DNA of 64,000 bases. Source: Brugia malayi. Lineage: Eukaryota; Nematoda; Chromadorea; Rhabditida; Onchocercidae. The notes beneath the pieces were generated by a model. That model ran no database searches. It was not told where the DNA came from and was given only the letters and a program-made list of their open reading frames with translations. Positions 34,710 through 63,737 of this stretch are shown piece after piece (the stretch's first letter is position 1; each line of letters begins with the position of its first letter). The DNA lies in assembly GCF_000002995.4 (NCBI RefSeq), contig NW_025062479.1, positions 17,914,721 to 17,978,720 on the forward strand. Direction: 5' to 3'. Position numbers and translations under genes: made by a program.

Positions 34710-36809
34710 ATGAAACGTTCTGCAGGAGACCGATTTGGAAGTGGAAGTAAACGGACACGAATGGACAGTTATGAAGAAGCTTTAGCGAATGGCAAATATG
34801 AACTACGATTGGTAGTGACGAGTCGAGGCGCTGGTGGTATCATTGGCAGGGGAGGCGAGAATATCAAACGCCTCCGTTCTGAGGTACTGCCATTTGGGTA
34901 ACACCCATGTATTTCATATTTTACAGTTTTGCAATTTATTACTTAGAGCGTCGACCGAAACTCATTTGCCTAACAAATAATATCAGCGCATTCTTTCTAA
35001 ACTGACTTTCTGATGCTTAACGATTTTAGTAATTTACACGTCTCTTAGACAGTGTAGTTTTCTAGCAGTAATTTTGAATGAGTTTTTGATTCCAGGAAGC
35101 AGGCTTTTTAAGTAATCGACTTATTTTACGAAGGGTTTCGGTGTTTGCAGCTGGCTTTAACTTGTTAAGCAAATGCGTTTTCGACCACAACTTGTGCAGG
35201 GTGTTGTCCTTCTTTTCCCTTGATGATTGAGATTTGCTTGTAAATGCAAACTTCTTGATTCCAAGAACTTCAGGAAAGTTCAAAAAGTTGTTAAATCACT
35301 TTTATATGCAACGGCCTTAGACTTTTTGTTGTTTGGCGGACTGAGCACATGAATTACGAAATTGTGAACACAGCCCAAACTAATGCTCATTTGCAGTTCG
35401 ACGCGAACCTGACCGTCCCAGATAGCCAGACGCCCGAACGGTAATTTATCCTGGAAATACTTGTTGCCCTCACTACTGATTACTCGTTGGGCCACGACCG
35501 TTATTGCCACCGGGCTTCCACACGATGGATAAACCTACAGCTCTAACAGGCTGACCTTGAATTACCTTCCACATTTCTTTCATAAATCTACTGCTACAAA
35601 ATAGGTGACATGCCTGCCTGCCTTCGCCTGCTTAATTGTTTGGGAATATGGCGCACATTGGTGCAGTTTAAGATTTTGATAGCTTTTAAGTGATTTCATT
35701 CAACTAAGGGATGTTCCCTGAAATCTGAAGGACAGTTTTTGTGGTGTTGTAAATTTAATTGATTTGTGGTAACCAAAAAACATATTTTGAAGTGGTGTTG
35801 TAAAGAGAGATCATTTAGTTGTAGTTTTCCTTAAAAGCAATGTGAGACTTCATGTGGAAATAATATTGTAGGAACATCATGTTTAATTGGGACAAAGAGC
35901 AGAGGGGCATGTTTCCCAAATTTTTTAGCAGAGGAGGCCATTTTTTTATAAATAAGAAGTTTTCAATAACCTAAAGATTTTAATCAGCCTGGAGCACGTT
36001 ATTTTTCAGTTTGGAGCTTCCTTGCAGTATTGCAAGGTAAACAGTTCGTCCCAACAGTACTTTTTCTTGCAGCTGTTAGGTTTCAGATTGTAATTTGATT
36101 ACTGGGCAGTAGCTTTGAACTTTTATGTTTTTGAAACTACACCTGTGAAATTTGCATGATTTTCCCATGAATTCATACAGGAAAAATGCTTCTTGGAATT
36201 TTTTCTTTTTTTTTTCTCTCATTACAACTGTATTTTACATGCCATTCAGGGTACTGACACTCACAGCTACAACAGAAAACATCGCAAACTGCTTACGTGA
36301 AATTATACCACGTCTGGATGAAGTAAGTTCCAATTTTTATAAATTTTAAAAGCAACCAAAAAAATTTCTGAATTTGTTAGTCGTCATCACTGCGAACAAG
36401 GATTAAAGGGTGCTTGGACAGTGGAATATGATGGTTTTAATGGACTCCAGCTCACTGGTTTTAATGAGGATGAGATTTGAAACTTCGATCTTTCTAAAAG
36501 CAGTGGGAGATAATGATGGAGAAAGTTTTCAGAATCGCGAAGATGATCATGATCGACGAATGAAGAAAGCAGACAGATCGGATAGTGAAATGAAAGTTTT
36601 AGTACATGAATCTCATGCCGGTGCTGTTATTGGCCGTGGTGGGTCACGAATAAAGGAACTTCGCGAAAAAACTGGGGCGCAACTCAAGGTTTGTTACTCG
36701 TTTTCAGTTTATGTTACGTGCGTAACTGGATATATATGGCATGTCTCAAATTTTCGAAATGAAGTAGTTGAGTGAACAATTATAAAAGCATTTAATATAT
36801 TATTTCCGA

Positions 36810-55700: not shown

Positions 55701-57220
55701 GTATTGATGTTGCTATTTGCAGTTTTATCATCTCTCTATTCTCCATTTGAATTGTGAAAAAAAAAAAAAAAAAAAAAAAAACTTTTCCATAAGTTTTTGA
55801 TTAATATGTGTTTTCTGTTTAAAAATTTTTTAAAATTGTTCTGTATAAATTGATTAAGGAAGATCGGATTACGCAAATAATTCAAACTGCTGAAGCGCTT
55901 ACTATAAAAAAAATTGGCCAGGTCACTGGCTTGTTTTCTTTTATTCATTTCTCACATAAAGCGATATTACCTCTAATACTATGCATGTCAGAACGACAGT
56001 AATAATAATCAACAATAGAAATGGTAAAGCCAAATTAATAAAATCATTATACGCTTAATTCCACGATTATCTGCTGCTAATCTTTGATGTCTGGTATTCA
56101 CCAGCAAAGTTTATGCTATGAAAAAACTGGTCAAATGGGGAAATGAAAGAGTAATGAGGTGATGCGATTTCACTTCAGTATCCAGCAGAGCTAAAAGAAG
56201 AAATAAGCAATAACACGAAACCAACAACAAAATAGCACCTTACCAAAATTTTTGATTTTATCACTTATGGATTTTTCAAGATAGAAGTCACAGTTTTTTG
56301 AATAAGAAATTGTCTAGCAGGCAAGTTTGGTATTTGATTTTCTGTTTATACGGTTATACTACTCTTCTAGGGCGCTCTTCATGTTCTATTATAAATTTTA
56401 CCTTACTTTATATCTATAGTTTACATATCTCCAAATAATCAGTTACTTCAGTTTATCATACAACACAAACCCACCATCTTGTTTAATATCTTTTATTATA
56501 ACCCGGAATCAATTGCGAAATAATGAATTAAAATTGATAATTCGAAATATTGTAATATCTCAATGTCAGTTTGTTGTACCTTCACTTGAAGCATTTCTGT
56601 CATTGGCATAATTCCTTGAAGATCTATGCTTTGTAGGTCCGGAAACTCAACTGCTCGTTATTTTTTACTTCAAATCCTCCAGATATTATAATATTTATTG
56701 CTACTTATCACTGATACCACTGTTGCTACCATACATAATACTATTGTGTCTGTTAATGTACTACTACTATCACTATTACTCTGTTTTAACTACTCGCCAC
56801 CGATAAATTTTGCTGTTCTATTTCATTTTATAAATCAGCAAATTTATTTTGCACGTTTACCGCAGTTCTGGAATAATGACGGCGCGCTCAACGTATTTTT
56901 ACCAAATACAGGTCCATACATTTAAATGATTTAATAGTGAGTTGCAAAATACCTTTGTCTTACAGTTAAAGTTTACGTTTTAAAAAATAAGATTTTGGCA
57001 TTCTCAATCTCCATATTTATAAAAAAGCCAAGTAACATCATCAGTCTCCATAATCGGGAAATAAGTTTTAGCTGGAACGAATAGATGAAGATTGCTGTAC
57101 ATGTTATATCGCACCTTTTAATTTCAGTTCGCATTTTTGATTTCTCATTTTTTTCTCTAAGTATATTGTATGACAGTTAGTTGTACATCTTACACCATTC
57201 TAACACACTTCACTTCACAT
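46734..57220. other. unresolved 10.5-kb region with exon-like islands
   Basis: No protein family is recognisable, yet several islands have higher GC than their surroundings and good splice sites: 48768-48934, 50011-50170, 51130-51323, 51461-51624, 52000-52130 and 53560-53900. On the plus strand, 48768-48934 (lead 1, ending phase 1) joins in frame to 50011 onwards, giving ...GYMLT|VIATVPDFTGDC.... On the minus strand several short frames can also be chained in phase. In a genome this AT-rich, chance frames of 30-60 codons are frequent and purine-rich strands look deceptively protein-like. I therefore do not call a gene, although at least one unrecognised gene probably lies here. Confidence 0.4.
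55757..55781. repeat. poly(A) tract, 25 nt
   Basis: Run of 25 A in noncoding sequence. No adjacent retroposon body was recognised. Confidence 0.9.
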
Positions 57221-57232
57221 ATCTAGAATGTA

Positions 57233-60200
57233 ATGGAAAAAGTAGGAACCGATTATTCATTTTCTAATTGTGGAGGCATTTTTCCAGACCTGTAATATAA
57301 TATTGATCATAGTGGGTCTTACCGCTGTAGGTCTTGCTGCGAGTCAATTTTGGAATGTTGCTCTCAACAATTACCGGTAAATAATCCGAGTATTTTATAT
57401 TTTTTATTTCATGACAATATTCATCGAATAATATACAATTGAATGTTGATATTTTATGACACTATGTCATTAAAAGTGTTTCTTTTGTATGGGAAATTAA
57501 ATATTTAAAGAACTGTATAAAGAAATAAATTTTAAAATTTCGACTCTCTGTTTTAACGACCTTGACCCTGTCGTTCTTCAATTACTGGATGTATTTCGCA
57601 AAGCTATGTTTCAGAAGGATTGATCTACGGCTGCTAAACTGGATTTATGTACTTGCTGGCTTAGTAGGCCTCTATACCTTATCTCGGAATCATGGAATTG
57701 TTGTGGCAAAGACAGTGCATTGTGTATCAATTGCTGTTGCTATCTATTCTACAGCATTCTACTGCGTTACGCTTTTCAGGGTAATCGGTGTCATGGAATT
57801 TCTCAAGGGATGTTTAGAAAAAAAGCCTTGAAAAAGGCTTTTGAAAAGGGCTTTAGGATTACAGAAAAGGAGAAAAAAAATTGCCTTTTTACAGTCTTTT
57901 CAAGTCTTGATTTTAGCACTTAAGTCTGTGAAAGAATAAAGTATTTTCCAGATAGTGCATCTGCATAGTGCACTGATGCAGGAGCAGCCCAATCTTCAAA
58001 ATGAAATGCAGAACGGTGAAGTTAGTGAGAACTTCACGACCAAACTGGTCATCTGTTCTCTTATGATCTTTGTACCAATTACCGCTTGTTTAGCAGCGTT
58101 TGTCGCTGCAGCACTTCTGGATCGTCTTATCGTCGTCAGCCAACCCACTTGGCCTCAGTACTCGGTGACTGGTTGCTAGATATCTTTCTTTATACTTGCT
58201 GGATCTTAAAATTATTTCATCGAAGACAGAACTATTACGAATATTGTTTTCATTTCCAGCTGTTCTAGGCTTTTTAAGGGAGCTTTTTATATGAGTCTTA
58301 TACCGTTTCTTGATCTGACTTTTGCTGGAAACATAATCCTAATAATATCTGTGCTTGTTCGGGAAAAAGAGGAATAATTTTTGATGGGTTTATAAGAATT
58401 TGAAACTGCAATGTTGAAATGTCGTATAATTTATAGCGTGACCAGAATAAAAAGTATCGTGCGAACCGCCTGGGCCTTACTGTTTTGGCTGCGATAAAAT
58501 TGTTTTCGGCATTATGTACTCTAGCTCTAGCTGTCTTGGTCGAATACGAACATCAGTTGGTTAGTTTTCGTTAGTATTGTTGTTGATTGTTCCCAGCAAG
58601 CACAACGTAGACTTCTGAAACCAGGATGTTGCAAGTAATCTGAAAAAGGTTTTCATTTACACTTTTAGTTCTGAAGTCAACTGTACTTGCTGTTTCAGGT
58701 ATCAAATAAAGGCCTATTTGTGTTGATCGCTCTTGATCACATTGCTGCACTGTTGACAATTGTCAGCGCAATAGTTGATTTGCATTCGGCTATCATTAGT
58801 AAACAATCGGCGGCTAATTATAAGGTGCTGTTTTTTGTCCCTCAATTTATGATTTATGTATGTGTCTCGGTTTTTCAACCATGTTTCATCATTACCACAT
58901 GGATTTTTTTAATATGTCAGACGCGAGAAATTTATTTTGTAATTAATAAAATGAATAGATTTGCAGGTTGCGATCGGAATGTCAGTGATTGCAGCAGTTT
59001 GGTGCCTGAAATCATTAGATATTGAAATGTACCCATATTACTATGATGATATTCAGATATGGAGAGCAGTAGGCTCAGTTCCTCGAAATGGAACCCAAAG
59101 TTAGTCTCGCTTTTCTCGTTACCGTGAGTTGGAGTGTTTTCGTGTCTTTCTACCTTTCCATCACCTTGTTTTACAATATTTTTTTTTTTTGTTTTTCCCT
59201 GCAAGTAACCAACGGAGAGTAAACAAATTTTGAAGTCTTAATCTGTGATGTCTTATCCTTTCATTCAACAAATATCTTTCTCAAGACGCTACTTCTAATA
59301 AATTCAATACAAAAGCAGACATAATTCTTCTTGCGGAAAGATTTTGATTCTTCACTTTGTTCTATTGTTACTGTTATTCCAAATTACAGCACTATCAGTC
59401 TACGGCACAGTAGATCGAACTTACTTGATTATCATCATGGAAGGATTTTTGGTGGTCTTGTTTGCTCTGCTTTTTGGTTTAAATTTGCTGTCTGCTGTTC
59501 AAGGTAGTAAATGTATCCAATACGAATATTATGACGAAGATTCGATGATCCGAAGAAATGTTTCTTTGCAGAGCAGGTCTACTTGCAGCATTTTTAAAGC
59601 TGTAATTGTCAATTCCCACATGTTCACGTTTTTTAAAACATATTTTCGATTGGAATAATATTCCTAATTAGTTTGGAGCTATAATAAATGAACTATATTA
59701 TAAAAAAATTTTCTCTATTCTGAAAGATGAGCAGAAAGAGTTGAAGTTGACATTAACATTCGGGAAAACTAAAAATTGAAAAGATTTAGGAATAAAAGAT
59801 CATTATTCGAAGTCGTTCAATAACTAAAAACATTAAAGAAGCTAGTTGAATTAGTTTCAAATGGGCTAAGAAGATTCAGTGACTGTTGTAGATATCTGGG
59901 ATTGTTACACTTCATTTGGGGAATGTTATTGTTGGTATTAGTGGTACTTGGGTTGATTGATGTACCCTGGAATGCAAATTATATTGGTGCTGATTTAATG
60001 TGGCTTGCTGTCTTGTTGTTTGCTACAGGCATATTATACATAACGCATTCTGGGTAATTTTTAAAATGATTACTGGTTCAACTCATATGTTTCATAAGAT
60101 TAATTTCGTATGGATCCTTTTCTGCTTGCAATTGTTCATTACTTTAAAGTTCTTCATTGAACAGAAGTGTCATATCGGAGAAATTGTTTCTAGGTCTACT

Positions 60201-63200
60201 TGTATCAGGTCCTTAAAACATCCTGGGAATATTTTTATGATTGTAGGACTGAAAAGATAGTGCGTCTGTTATTGACCATATTGATATTATCATATCAAAT
60301 AATCGGTTCGTTTTTTGTTGTAGTTCGCACTTATCAATTCATTTTCTGCTTGGATTCATCTGTTTCACATGCGCCCTAGAAAAGATGTGCTCAAGTATCA
60401 ATCTCACATATCAGTCCGCAACTTATCCTGCTTTTATCCGTGGTCCTCAAGATGCATTTCTTGGTCGTTTAGTTTTATATAGTGTGCAGCTTATGGTTAG
60501 TCTTTACGACACAATTATTCATCTCAACATCCATAATGATGAAAAATTCTACCATGGTTTTGCAGAGAGTGATAGCAAATTGATGTAAAGAATGATACAA
60601 TATCAAGATAGCCAGAAATTTATCTTTTAAATTAAGTGGAAGTAAAGGATGCTCAGAATTGGAGAGCATATTTCAAGCTAAGGTTTTTGTTTCCAACTTC
60701 ATTCTTTCTATAAAATTGAAGCGCTAAATATAAATTTATTTTTTATTTCAGATCCTATTTTTGGAAACTCTCACGGGATTTTTTTCAGTTATCATATATG
60801 GCCGCGCATTGAAACAGCGATATCGTCAAGCAGTAAAGTATTCCACATGTTGGCATTGACTTCCTTGTTATGTTGATTTTGCAAAAAATTGAAATTCAGT
60901 TATTTAGTTGAGCTTTTAAAATTTAAGTAAATTGGGGGCATGGCACTTTCACAGCGCACAAAACTGCGAAAAACAAGCATAATTTTGGCAGGAAATTTAT
61001 GTAAGGATAGTTGATATGTAGGAGCCACCAGAAGAAAGTAGAGACTGAATAGTACCTTTACAGTTAATAAAAGTAGCAATGTAGATGATATTTGATATAG
61101 AAATGAGTTTGAAATTCATATCGTCTGTCTGTTGTCATTCACTATTACAGCCATCTAATAGGACCAATAATATCAATAAATTAAGGCATGCACCTAATAT
61201 TGTTTCTGGGCAATATGTTCTATGGTGTAGTACTTGTTGGTTGTAACGTTGTATTCACACTCGTTTATTGGCTTTTTTCTGAATCGCTGGTCGAAATTCC
61301 CTTCTTCCACATGGGTAATGGTCTATTGGTGTTCGGCATTTCCATTTTGCAGGTAGCCACTTAGGCCTTTTCCTCTTTTAAAATTACTGAGGCAGTCATG
61401 TTTTTTCCTTTTTAAAATACTTGTCAGCCTTGGAAATCATCTGATATCAAAAATTCACCACTTTTGTAAGAGTTTTCATTTCCATGATCTTAATATACTA
61501 TGAATAAATATTCCATTTAGGTATTATCATTATGCTATCCTGCATTGTTACTTTCGGTGACAACACTAAATGTGATAGCTGCATCAGTAGCTTTGTTTAT
61601 GGTTAGCTACGCCATATCCAATACCTACTTCCTGGTATTTATTCCTCTAATTTCAAATATTTCTAGAAATTCGGTGTAATTTTACGTATCTCAATGTAAC
61701 TTTCAGATAATTGTTACCTAATAAAGACTGGCATCCATTTTATATTGTGTATTTAATTTAGGCGGCGGTATTGTTTACAGTTGAGGGATTTCACTGGGTA
61801 ATTATTGAAGTAGTTTTGATACTAACTGCTTGTGCTTCCACTGCTTGTGTTATATGTACATTTTGTTCTACGTTTGCTATTGTCAGGTTTGATTTTCAAT
61901 CTTCTTTTGATTGATTGGAAAAACTTTTCATATTGTTAGCTATAGAAAAGAACGATATAACATCAAAAGTTTCCTGTTTTTTACCTATATTGCGAGCAGA
62001 TAGCAAATTGTATTGAAATGCCGACATGTCAGGATTAACCGGACATTCAGTGCACCATATCTCTTGTTGATGGCGCAAATGCATCTATATTTCCAAGCAA
62101 AAGTCATAAGCCAGCGATTTTCTAGCTTTTCGTCTTTATTTAAAAGCTGGTTGGATTATTGGATAGAATGATCAGAATTCACCGTTCTGAATAATGCAAG
62201 ATTTTTTGATGCTCAAGAGAGTTCGAAAACTAGCAGTCAATTGATAATCCATGATTTAAATCCGTATTTACCAAAGAGAAACTGCACTTTCCTTAATGTA
62301 TAATTCCTTCTTTCCGTGTAGTTCATTATCAAATCAAAAGAATCCTTTTTCATTTTTAAACTCATAGTAATTGATATTTCCATCTTACTCAGTATTGTTT
62401 AACTTCAGTAAAAATCTTGATTATGATTCAGTTTCTTGTACGCGGCATGTCGTAAGCCCACAAGTAGCACATCAACCATTGTACTGTGCGAAGACAACAA
62501 CTATGGTACTCAACGAACATTGGTCAGTCCACAACTCCAGGTATTTTGTTCTAGAGCAGTGAATAAAGCTTAAATATTTATTCTCGATACTTCGACTAAC
62601 CTTTTGCAATGAAGACAAATGTTTCAAAAATGGAAGTCGTTAGCTGATTGCTTTCTGATGGTTTTTTGTCGTTGAATATCAACTGCAGATGATTTCATTT
62701 CGTTAATCTATTATAGCCATGGCACTTTATAACAGTTAAAAAAATTCAATTATTTAAATGGGAAGAATATTTCGACTAGCTAAGATTGTACACTGTCTTG
62801 CAAATATGATTCTATTCTATTCCTTGAAAGGTAGTTAAATTAGAATTTCAAGTTTCTTATTGAGATTTAGACACCACCAGTCCGACACATGGAGGAACAA
62901 TCAATTTATTGGTCAACAGATGAAAATCCATATTATTATCAGGCCTCAAAGCGTTACTATGATCAACCCTACAGGATTGATTCCGGGTATGTTGTTCCAT
63001 GTTTTCAATTTTTTTTTAGTTCATAGAAATTTCTAGTTTAGTTTCAAAATTGGCTGTCATGTTTACTTCAATTAGTTTGTTTGGAATTTCCGAAGCGTCA
63101 ATTCATCTACTCGAGAATGGACATAATTTACCATTGGTAAATTCATCCTTAGTTTACATGAAACAAGATAATTCATTGTTGATACTTGTTGTTTTTAAGT

Positions 63201-63737
63201 TGATTGTGATAAAACTTGCCATTCTTCCTTTCTTTGCAACAAAAACCTGTTGTGCTTTAAATCCAACTTAATTGGATCGAAAATCGAAAATCTGAAGTTG
63301 GATCCTCAAGTTGAACACAATAAGACTAAAATTTACTGTTCAATTTTAGTCTTTCCATTATCCCATTTTTTTCTTCGGATCTTTTCAGGACGAATTTAAT
63401 ATTTTGCGAAACCTTCGAACTTAATTTGTTTGCTTAAATAAATTCAAAAATTATGAGAGTTGCAAATCTAATTTTGCTGCTTATTTTGATAAGATTTATA
63501 AATTCCGCAATGGACGATATTAAAACAACTTACAGTTCAAACCTGTGCACTTCTTGAAGTATATTAGCAACGATGATTTTTAGGTTTTATGGGTATGCAC
63601 TCGTCAGCCCACAAATGTTTGATTCACCATATGCCGTGATGAGTGCAGATAGCAGTGGTAGAGTTGGTTCCGGACGGTATCTCCGGAGCGTCAATTCATC
63701 CGCTGCACAAACGAGAATTGGACATATTTTCAGCTAA
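57233..63737 (+). CDS. multi-pass membrane protein, about 16 TM helices in four modules
   Basis: Exons: 57233-57241 (tentative start, MEK), 57288-57376, 57615-57780, 57952-58164, 58437-58559, 58699-58824, 58967-59099, 59390-59576, 59892-60053, 60324-60495, 60752-60832, 60955-61000, 61186-61352, 61521-61634, 61762-61886, 62409-62505 (donor uncertain), 62871-62986, 63584-63737 (stop); about 759 residues. Nearly every exon carries a membrane helix, for example LLNWIYVLAGLVGLYTL, LVICSLMIFVPITACLAAFV, GFLVVLFALLFGLNLLSAV, LHFIWGMLLLVLVVLGLI, GVVLVGCNVVFTLVYWLF, VVLILTACASTACVICTF. They group as four sets of four, each later set introduced by a basic cytoplasmic stretch (NKKYRANR; IRRNVSLQSR; ALKQRYRQARTKLRK). 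Loops contain N-glycosylation motifs (NGT, NLT). The cytoplasmic tail is Tyr-rich (DENPYYYQASKRYYDQPY). I do not recognise the family. Tetraspan classes (MARVEL, MS4A, LHFPL-like) are possible relatives by topology only. Function unknown. Confidence 0.82.
63080..63340. repeat. degenerate copy of the last exon's 3' part, in the last intron
   Basis: This block matches 63680-63950 (the end of the last coding exon plus the 3' UTR) at an offset of about 600 nt. It shares strings such as gcgtcaattcatc and gaaaatctgaagttgga. The exon part of the intronic copy differs from the functional copy. The duplication covers the stop region but not the start of the exon. Confidence 0.85.

Follow-up and report, generated by a model that had tools for sequence, protein, structure and literature searches.

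The window analysed here, a 64,000-nucleotide stretch of Brugia malayi DNA, carries a gene of 17 exons on its forward strand (56876-63737; positions are those of the window). Its product is a single protein with 16 hydrophobic helices and a conserved, Tyr-rich C-terminal tail. In predicted models the helices form four groups of four, and the protein may be a covalent four-unit scaffold of CD20 type whose tail docks a partner, a reading to which, taken as a whole, a probability of about 0.43 is assigned. By sequence, the locus is the orthologue of C. elegans R07B1.9.

A single gene with relatives throughout the nematodes

Joining the 17 exons gives 762 residues with no internal stops, and all introns are of the GT..AG type. 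The product is identical to the Brugia pahangi protein P0001 at 753 of 762 positions (9 differences), with the limits that P0001 served as the guide for the exon model and that the supporting relatives are mostly gene predictions themselves. An earlier reading of the DNA from its letters alone (hereafter the original prediction) had the gene begin at 57233, which was wrong since the start codon is the ATG at 56876, and it misplaced exon 15 (62432-62540) at 62409-62505. Its Tyr-rich tail ending at 63737 is borne out by the joined exons.

Thirty ids came back from three protein searches, and every one is listed under the name of a nematode. The searches yielded 19 proteins, 20 proteins (4 new) and 11 proteins (7 new ids, two of which share one name), and 26 of the 30 ids are 701-789 residues long, the other four being shorter. 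That only nematodes appear holds within the limits of these searches: each of the first two scored no more than some 8,000 candidates, and length was restricted in all three. Taxonomy was looked up for Plectus sambesii (Chromadorea, Plectida) and B. pahangi. A chance assembly of exons is excluded because 30 nematode ids carry relatives. R07B1.9 (770 residues, 39% identical to P0001) resembles the B. malayi protein in length class, in the 16 helices of its model and in its tail; the features of its orthologue group, four units of four transmembrane (TM) helices and a YWSxxENP..Y tail, are present in the B. malayi protein.

The original prediction took the locus for one gene, and single proteins of 748-787 residues in B. 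pahangi, Elaeophora, Syphacia, Acrobeloides, Steinernema hermaphroditum, C. elegans, Pristionchus and Plectus agree with it. Two to four neighbouring tetraspan genes wrongly joined could in principle give the same picture, as stop codons and one AATAAA signal would let genes end near 58377, 59603 and 60859, provided that reading goes on beyond some exons. Many annotations, however, contain full-length relatives in which a single protein spans the four units, which makes such a misjoining barely credible; a possible gene end near 59603 was dropped after comparison with the relatives.

The entries from Thelazia (P0010), Dracunculus (P0022) and Nippostrongylus (P0023) lack stretches of the membrane part, probably because exons were missed in annotation. 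Database names of the relatives conflict (MARVEL, DUF4173, calpain, Pecanex-like, lantibiotic ABC permease, GPCR, solute carrier family 40 and ammonium transporter, carried by P0002, P0004, P0010, P0011, P0012, P0017, P0018 and P0023) and are most likely automatic misnamings. The original prediction knew of no named family with this layout; it missed that databases already hold the family, R07B1.9 among its members, though under no family name.

Helices and topology

Averaging hydropathy across 23 aligned relatives gives 16 local maxima, of which the lowest reaches 1.41, in agreement with the roughly 16 helices that had been predicted; a list of stretches above 1.2 breaks into 22 pieces. AlphaFold models of P0001 (23 sequences; mean predicted local distance difference test score (pLDDT) 70.9, predicted template modelling score (pTM) 0.77) and of R07B1.9 (29 sequences; 73.3 and 0.78) both show three short additional helices besides the 16 main ones. 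The grouping by fours is supported by these models, each of which repeats one helix pattern four times. In P0001 the main helices are predicted at residues 2-31, 48-66, 70-107 and 125-156 (module 1), 169-211, 221-241, 246-288 and 299-337 (module 2), 347-379, 390-409, 415-445 and 454-492 (module 3), and 501-532, 547-562, 564-599 and 606-643 (module 4). In both models helix 2 is the shortest of every unit, with helix 3 following closely after gaps of 3, 4, 5 and 1 residues in units 1 to 4 of P0001 and of 3, 4, 8 and 4 residues in R07B1.9.

Loop charges and conservation were counted on an alignment of 29 rows, of which 23 were used after removal of six that were partial or badly predicted. All eight predicted inside loops with residues between helix cores are net basic, and seven of the eight outside loops are net acidic or near neutral, the remaining one being +0.5. 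Both ends of the protein are therefore placed inside. The basic cytoplasmic linkers and longer non-cytoplasmic loops of the original prediction thus hold, the outer loops spanning 7-39 residues between helix cores.

Origin of the four units

The four units probably share a common origin, as judged from sequence. Direct profile comparison of the quarters with hhalign was weak, and a helix-pairing test was devised for this reason. Helix pairs were scored between units, and the in-register labelling (TM1 with TM1, TM2 with TM2 and so on) was ranked among 13,824 relabellings, the score and settings being analyst-defined. The in-register labelling ranked 5th in the first run and 1, 3, 4, 5, 6, 8, 10, 12, 13, 14, 32, 115 and 146 in 13 further settings. 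With helix orientation kept, its rank among 64 was 3 in the first run and 1-4 in the 13 settings. Two of the settings were also run with column shuffles that keep composition; of 300 trials in each, none in one setting and 1 in the other came up to the observed value. The pairing signal comes mostly from unit pairs 1-3, 2-3 and 3-4. Modules 1 and 3, the best of the six pairs in global hhalign, align end to end over 143 columns (p 0.0021, against 0.5 when reversed). Because in-register pairing beats nearly all alternatives in 13 of 14 settings, the repeat origin that had been proposed is considered likely.

Alternatively, four tetraspan units without a common origin could owe their regular layout to topology and helix packing and not to duplication. 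Three results point this way and count against a common origin: in hhalign the reversed controls equal or surpass the quarters themselves in p value; units 1 and 4 have no sequence support and never pair in register (rank 7-24 of 24); and a fourteenth setting, restricted to seven filaria-type sequences, loses the signal (rank 1499 of 13,824, and 14 of 64 with orientation kept). The ranks of 1-146 in the other settings, which lie above the column shuffles, and the global alignment of modules 1 and 3 argue for duplication, so that independent origin is held to be unlikely. Each of the three junctions between units has an intron (close to residues 168, 357 and 501, obtained by adding exon lengths), the phases being 0, 2 and 1, and these differing phases give no support for simple exon shuffling.

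Predicted fold of the units

Structure comparison of both AlphaFold models gave Fc-epsilon-RI beta, sarcospan and CD20 as the best or near-best matches of module 1, and unit 1 in its predicted form has the four-helix fold of CD20 and Fc-epsilon-RI beta. A CD20/MS4A-type fold is thereby supported for unit 1. Units 2-4 have the same helix pattern in both models and may have the same fold, the structure search giving one alignment per chain. The profile of module 3 matches that of MS4A weakly in hhalign (p 0.0027, against 0.017 reversed), and helix pairing with a four-sequence MS4A profile put the in-register labelling at joint rank 1 of 24 in six of six settings. Joint ranks for single-sequence controls were 2-18 for CD20, 2 for Fc-epsilon-RI beta and 3-8 for CD81.

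Kinship with MS4A is weakened by three observations. Pfam CD20 (PF04103) does not match any of the 23 relatives, the four module consensuses or the locus in a search of its own genome; claudin-4, at joint rank 2-4 of 24, is on a par with single MS4A sequences, so the test does not separate MS4A from claudin; and a soluble bundle is among the structure matches of module 1. Given the missing Pfam match and the claudin control, the protein is described as CD20/MS4A-like in predicted fold and not as a member of the MS4A family.

It has also been named as a MARVEL-family protein, in the UniRef entries of Elaeophora (P0002) and Panagrellus (P0020). The MARVEL family (PF01284) is not among the 18 Pfam families listed for the 23 relatives, and synaptophysin, represented by a single sequence entered by hand, takes ranks 15-24 of 24 in helix pairing, which leaves this assignment very improbable. 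No MARVEL or tetraspanin chain is among the structure matches listed, which is no evidence against either family. The same Pfam listing offers no useful family: TMEM52 reaches an expect value (E) of 0.00028 in one relative and the other 17 families 0.023 or worse, cut-offs being known for the first member only; NCBIfam gave nothing usable for three proteins.

The cytoplasmic tail

The tail contains the most conserved part of the protein, residues 680-718, with a mean of 79% compared with 56-64% in the modules. From about residue 645 onwards the models give it a pLDDT below 50. Most rows share the core YW[ST]xxENPxxYxxx[KR]RYYxxPYxIxSGxYGY. A length-limited search with an 87-residue stretch of the Acrobeloides tail gave 19 candidates, and the 11 that were scored are all R07B1.9-type proteins. 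Against the PDB, the C. elegans tail had six matches, mostly antibodies, at E 0.3 or worse.

The W-S-x-D-E-N-P core of the tail resembles the integrin beta tail family Integrin_b_cyt of Pfam, with E of 0.022 and 0.033 in two of five tails compared and none for those of C. elegans, Acrobeloides and Plectus. The match is below the cut-off, and with E allowed to rise to 10 it is seen in four of the 23 relatives. Integrin-beta-type tails for talin or phosphotyrosine-binding (PTB) domains would call for an invariant NPxY. Among the 23 rows NPx[YF] is found in 20, two have V or I at that position and one lacks NP; NPxxY is found in 22. The likeness to integrin beta is regarded as a lead from sequence.

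Proposed function

R07B1.9 is a late pharyngeal gene, used only as a promoter reporter in the papers found. The four tetraspan units, probably derived from one ancestral unit, would follow one another head to tail, and the N- and C-termini would both lie on the cytoplasmic side. For CD20 a tetrameric state has been described, probably formed by two dimers (PMC2826416). By analogy, the four-unit chain may be a covalent pseudo-oligomer which forms a fixed four-unit platform in the membrane. The Tyr-rich tail would dock a cytosolic adaptor or cytoskeletal partner, and the protein may scaffold or organise the membrane, one possible site being the pharynx, in which R07B1.9 switches on late. A scaffold docking a cytosolic partner is the best guess because the inner tail is conserved and expression is late and pharyngeal. 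In the 1,500 bases upstream of 56876, PHA-4-like TRTTKRY sites number 8 where 7.5 are expected, and the high-affinity PHA-4 site TGTTTGC is absent.

The main competing reading is that of a transporter or channel built from repeats. Here the 16 helices, with conserved charges within the membrane, would together form a single compact pore or carrier, and the tail would serve only to regulate or localise it. This rival comes first because several charged residues of the helices are near invariant; the near-invariant charged or polar residues in helices or at their ends are K74, K189, H223, D236, K251, K266, D392, E431, K432 and Q557. Internal repeats are moreover common in carriers. Foldseek, however, found no match for the whole model at E of 0.001 or lower, no transporter family is convincing in Pfam, and module 1 alone best matches tetraspans that are not transporters. 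The best Foldseek rows were pyrophosphatases (E 0.08 and 0.0055), whose TM-scores near 0.17 are taken to reflect large helical proteins only. A transporter is held to be rather unlikely.

A bolder version of the scaffold proposal is a covalent tetramer of CD20/sarcospan type with an integrin-beta-like docking tail, which would replace a multi-subunit adhesion or signalling platform in the pharynx and possibly stand in for sarcospan. According to a review legend, C. elegans has most of the mammalian dystrophin complex except sarcospan and nNOS (PMC8125261). This version is considered improbable.

Features of the locus

In a search of its own genome, in which the best candidates were scored, 16 of 17 matches lay at the locus and the 17th had E 0.01, so the four-unit gene looks to be single copy. 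The acceptor of exon 12 is unusual and was chosen because P0001 reads STCMHL. An open hydrophobic stretch in intron 4 (58279-58356, plus strand) resembles a transmembrane exon but has no counterpart in the B. pahangi, Elaeophora and Acanthocheilonema proteins. A second one, with splice-like ends (60247-60305, plus strand), lies within the intron 60054-60323, outside the model that fits B. pahangi. Elsewhere in the window, an exon of a KH-domain protein occurs at 36407-36775 on the plus strand (Pfam KH_1, E 1.1e-10). Elsewhere in the genome, a single-unit CD20-family exon at C135:2767928-2768143 on the minus strand (loci L004 and L008) scores above the Pfam cut-off (E 2.9e-8; 6.4e-9).

Table 1. 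Exons, predicted modules and tail of the four-unit gene. P0001, match of the joined exons to B. pahangi P0001; AF, AlphaFold helices.
Feature	Position	Strand	Basis
Exon 1, start codon ATG 56876, MTARSTYFYQIQ	56876..56911	+	N-terminus matches P0001; GT..AG intron
Exon 2, module 1 TM1	57288..57376	+	P0001, AF
Exon 3, module 1 TM2-TM3	57615..57780	+	P0001, AF
Exon 4, module 1 TM4 and linker to module 2	57952..58164	+	P0001, AF
Exon 5, module 2 TM1	58437..58559	+	P0001, AF
Exon 6, module 2 TM2	58699..58824	+	P0001, AF
Exon 7, module 2 TM3 and outer loop	58967..59099	+	P0001, AF
Exon 8, module 2 TM4 and linker to module 3	59390..59576	+	P0001, AF
Exon 9, module 3 TM1-TM2	59892..60053	+	P0001, AF
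Exon 10, module 3 TM3 and outer loop	60324..60495	+	P0001, AF
Exon 11, module 3 TM4 and linker to module 4	60752..60848	+	P0001, AF
Exon 12, module 4 TM1 and start of TM2; unusual acceptor	61186..61352	+	Comparison with P0001
Exon 13, module 4 end of TM2 and TM3	61521..61634	+	P0001, AF
Exon 14, module 4 TM4	61762..61886	+	P0001, AF
Exon 15, start of cytoplasmic tail	62432..62540	+	P0001
Exon 16, conserved tail core YWSTDENPYYYQASKRYYDQPYRIDSG	62871..62986	+	P0001, conservation count
Exon 17, tail end and stop codon	63584..63737	+	P0001
Module 1, residues 1-160, predicted CD20/MS4A-like fold	56876..58140	+	Structure matches; span by arithmetic from exons
Module 2, residues 166-342	58156..59529	+	Helix pattern, both models
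Module 3, residues 346-495, weak in-register profile match to MS4A	59539..60829	+	Helix pattern and profile alignment
Module 4, residues 498-646	60836..62459	+	Helix pattern, both models
Tyr-rich cytoplasmic tail, residues 647-762, pLDDT under 50	62460..63737	+	AlphaFold, conservation count

Comparison with known tetraspan proteins

Claudins have a W-GLW-C-C motif as their hallmark. Their chains have a lower Z on module 1 than CD20-type chains, and Pfam does not list Claudin (PF00822) for the protein or the 23 relatives, no scripted search for the motif having been made. Tetraspanins are marked by a large outer loop with a CCG motif. Tetraspanin (PF00335) is likewise not listed for the protein or the 23 relatives, in which the outer loops are of the length given above. 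Sarcospan differs in being a single unit; it has no hhalign match to any module, and its pairing is mixed (joint ranks 1, 1, 1, 2, 3 and 9 of 24).

In the literature searched, from which subscription papers were mostly absent, no description of the four-unit nematode layout with its Tyr-rich tail was found. A nematode gene to which no function has been assigned gains from the present reading a hypothesis about its structure and, in R07B1.9, a genetic model in a free-living species. Should units 2-4 have the CD20-type fold as well, their fixed arrangement would reveal the geometry that tetraspans of this kind require, something difficult to deduce from the loosely associating MS4A proteins of vertebrates. 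Such a fold would matter, too, for the question of CD20-type units in animals other than vertebrates, to which the single-unit CD20-family exon described above also belongs and on which two surveys differ: that of 2010 reported invertebrates to be without MS4A-like genes (PMC2826416), and that of 2017 has a CD20-like family among metazoan clusters (PMC5620054).

Fused CD20-type units are already known from vertebrates, and what appears to be new is the four-unit nematode protein with its conserved tail. Two or more MS4A units are fused per polypeptide in chicken, opossum and platypus; such fusions, of two or six units, are known for five MS4A genes of vertebrates, the six-unit form coming from one opossum gene (PMC2826416). 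The nematode protein differs from MS4A/CD20 proteins in having four units per chain and, as judged by eye, no conserved Cys pair in its outer loops. The tandem units of vertebrate MS4A proteins were recognised by PSI-BLAST, whereas the nematode protein consists of four diverged units followed by a conserved tail.
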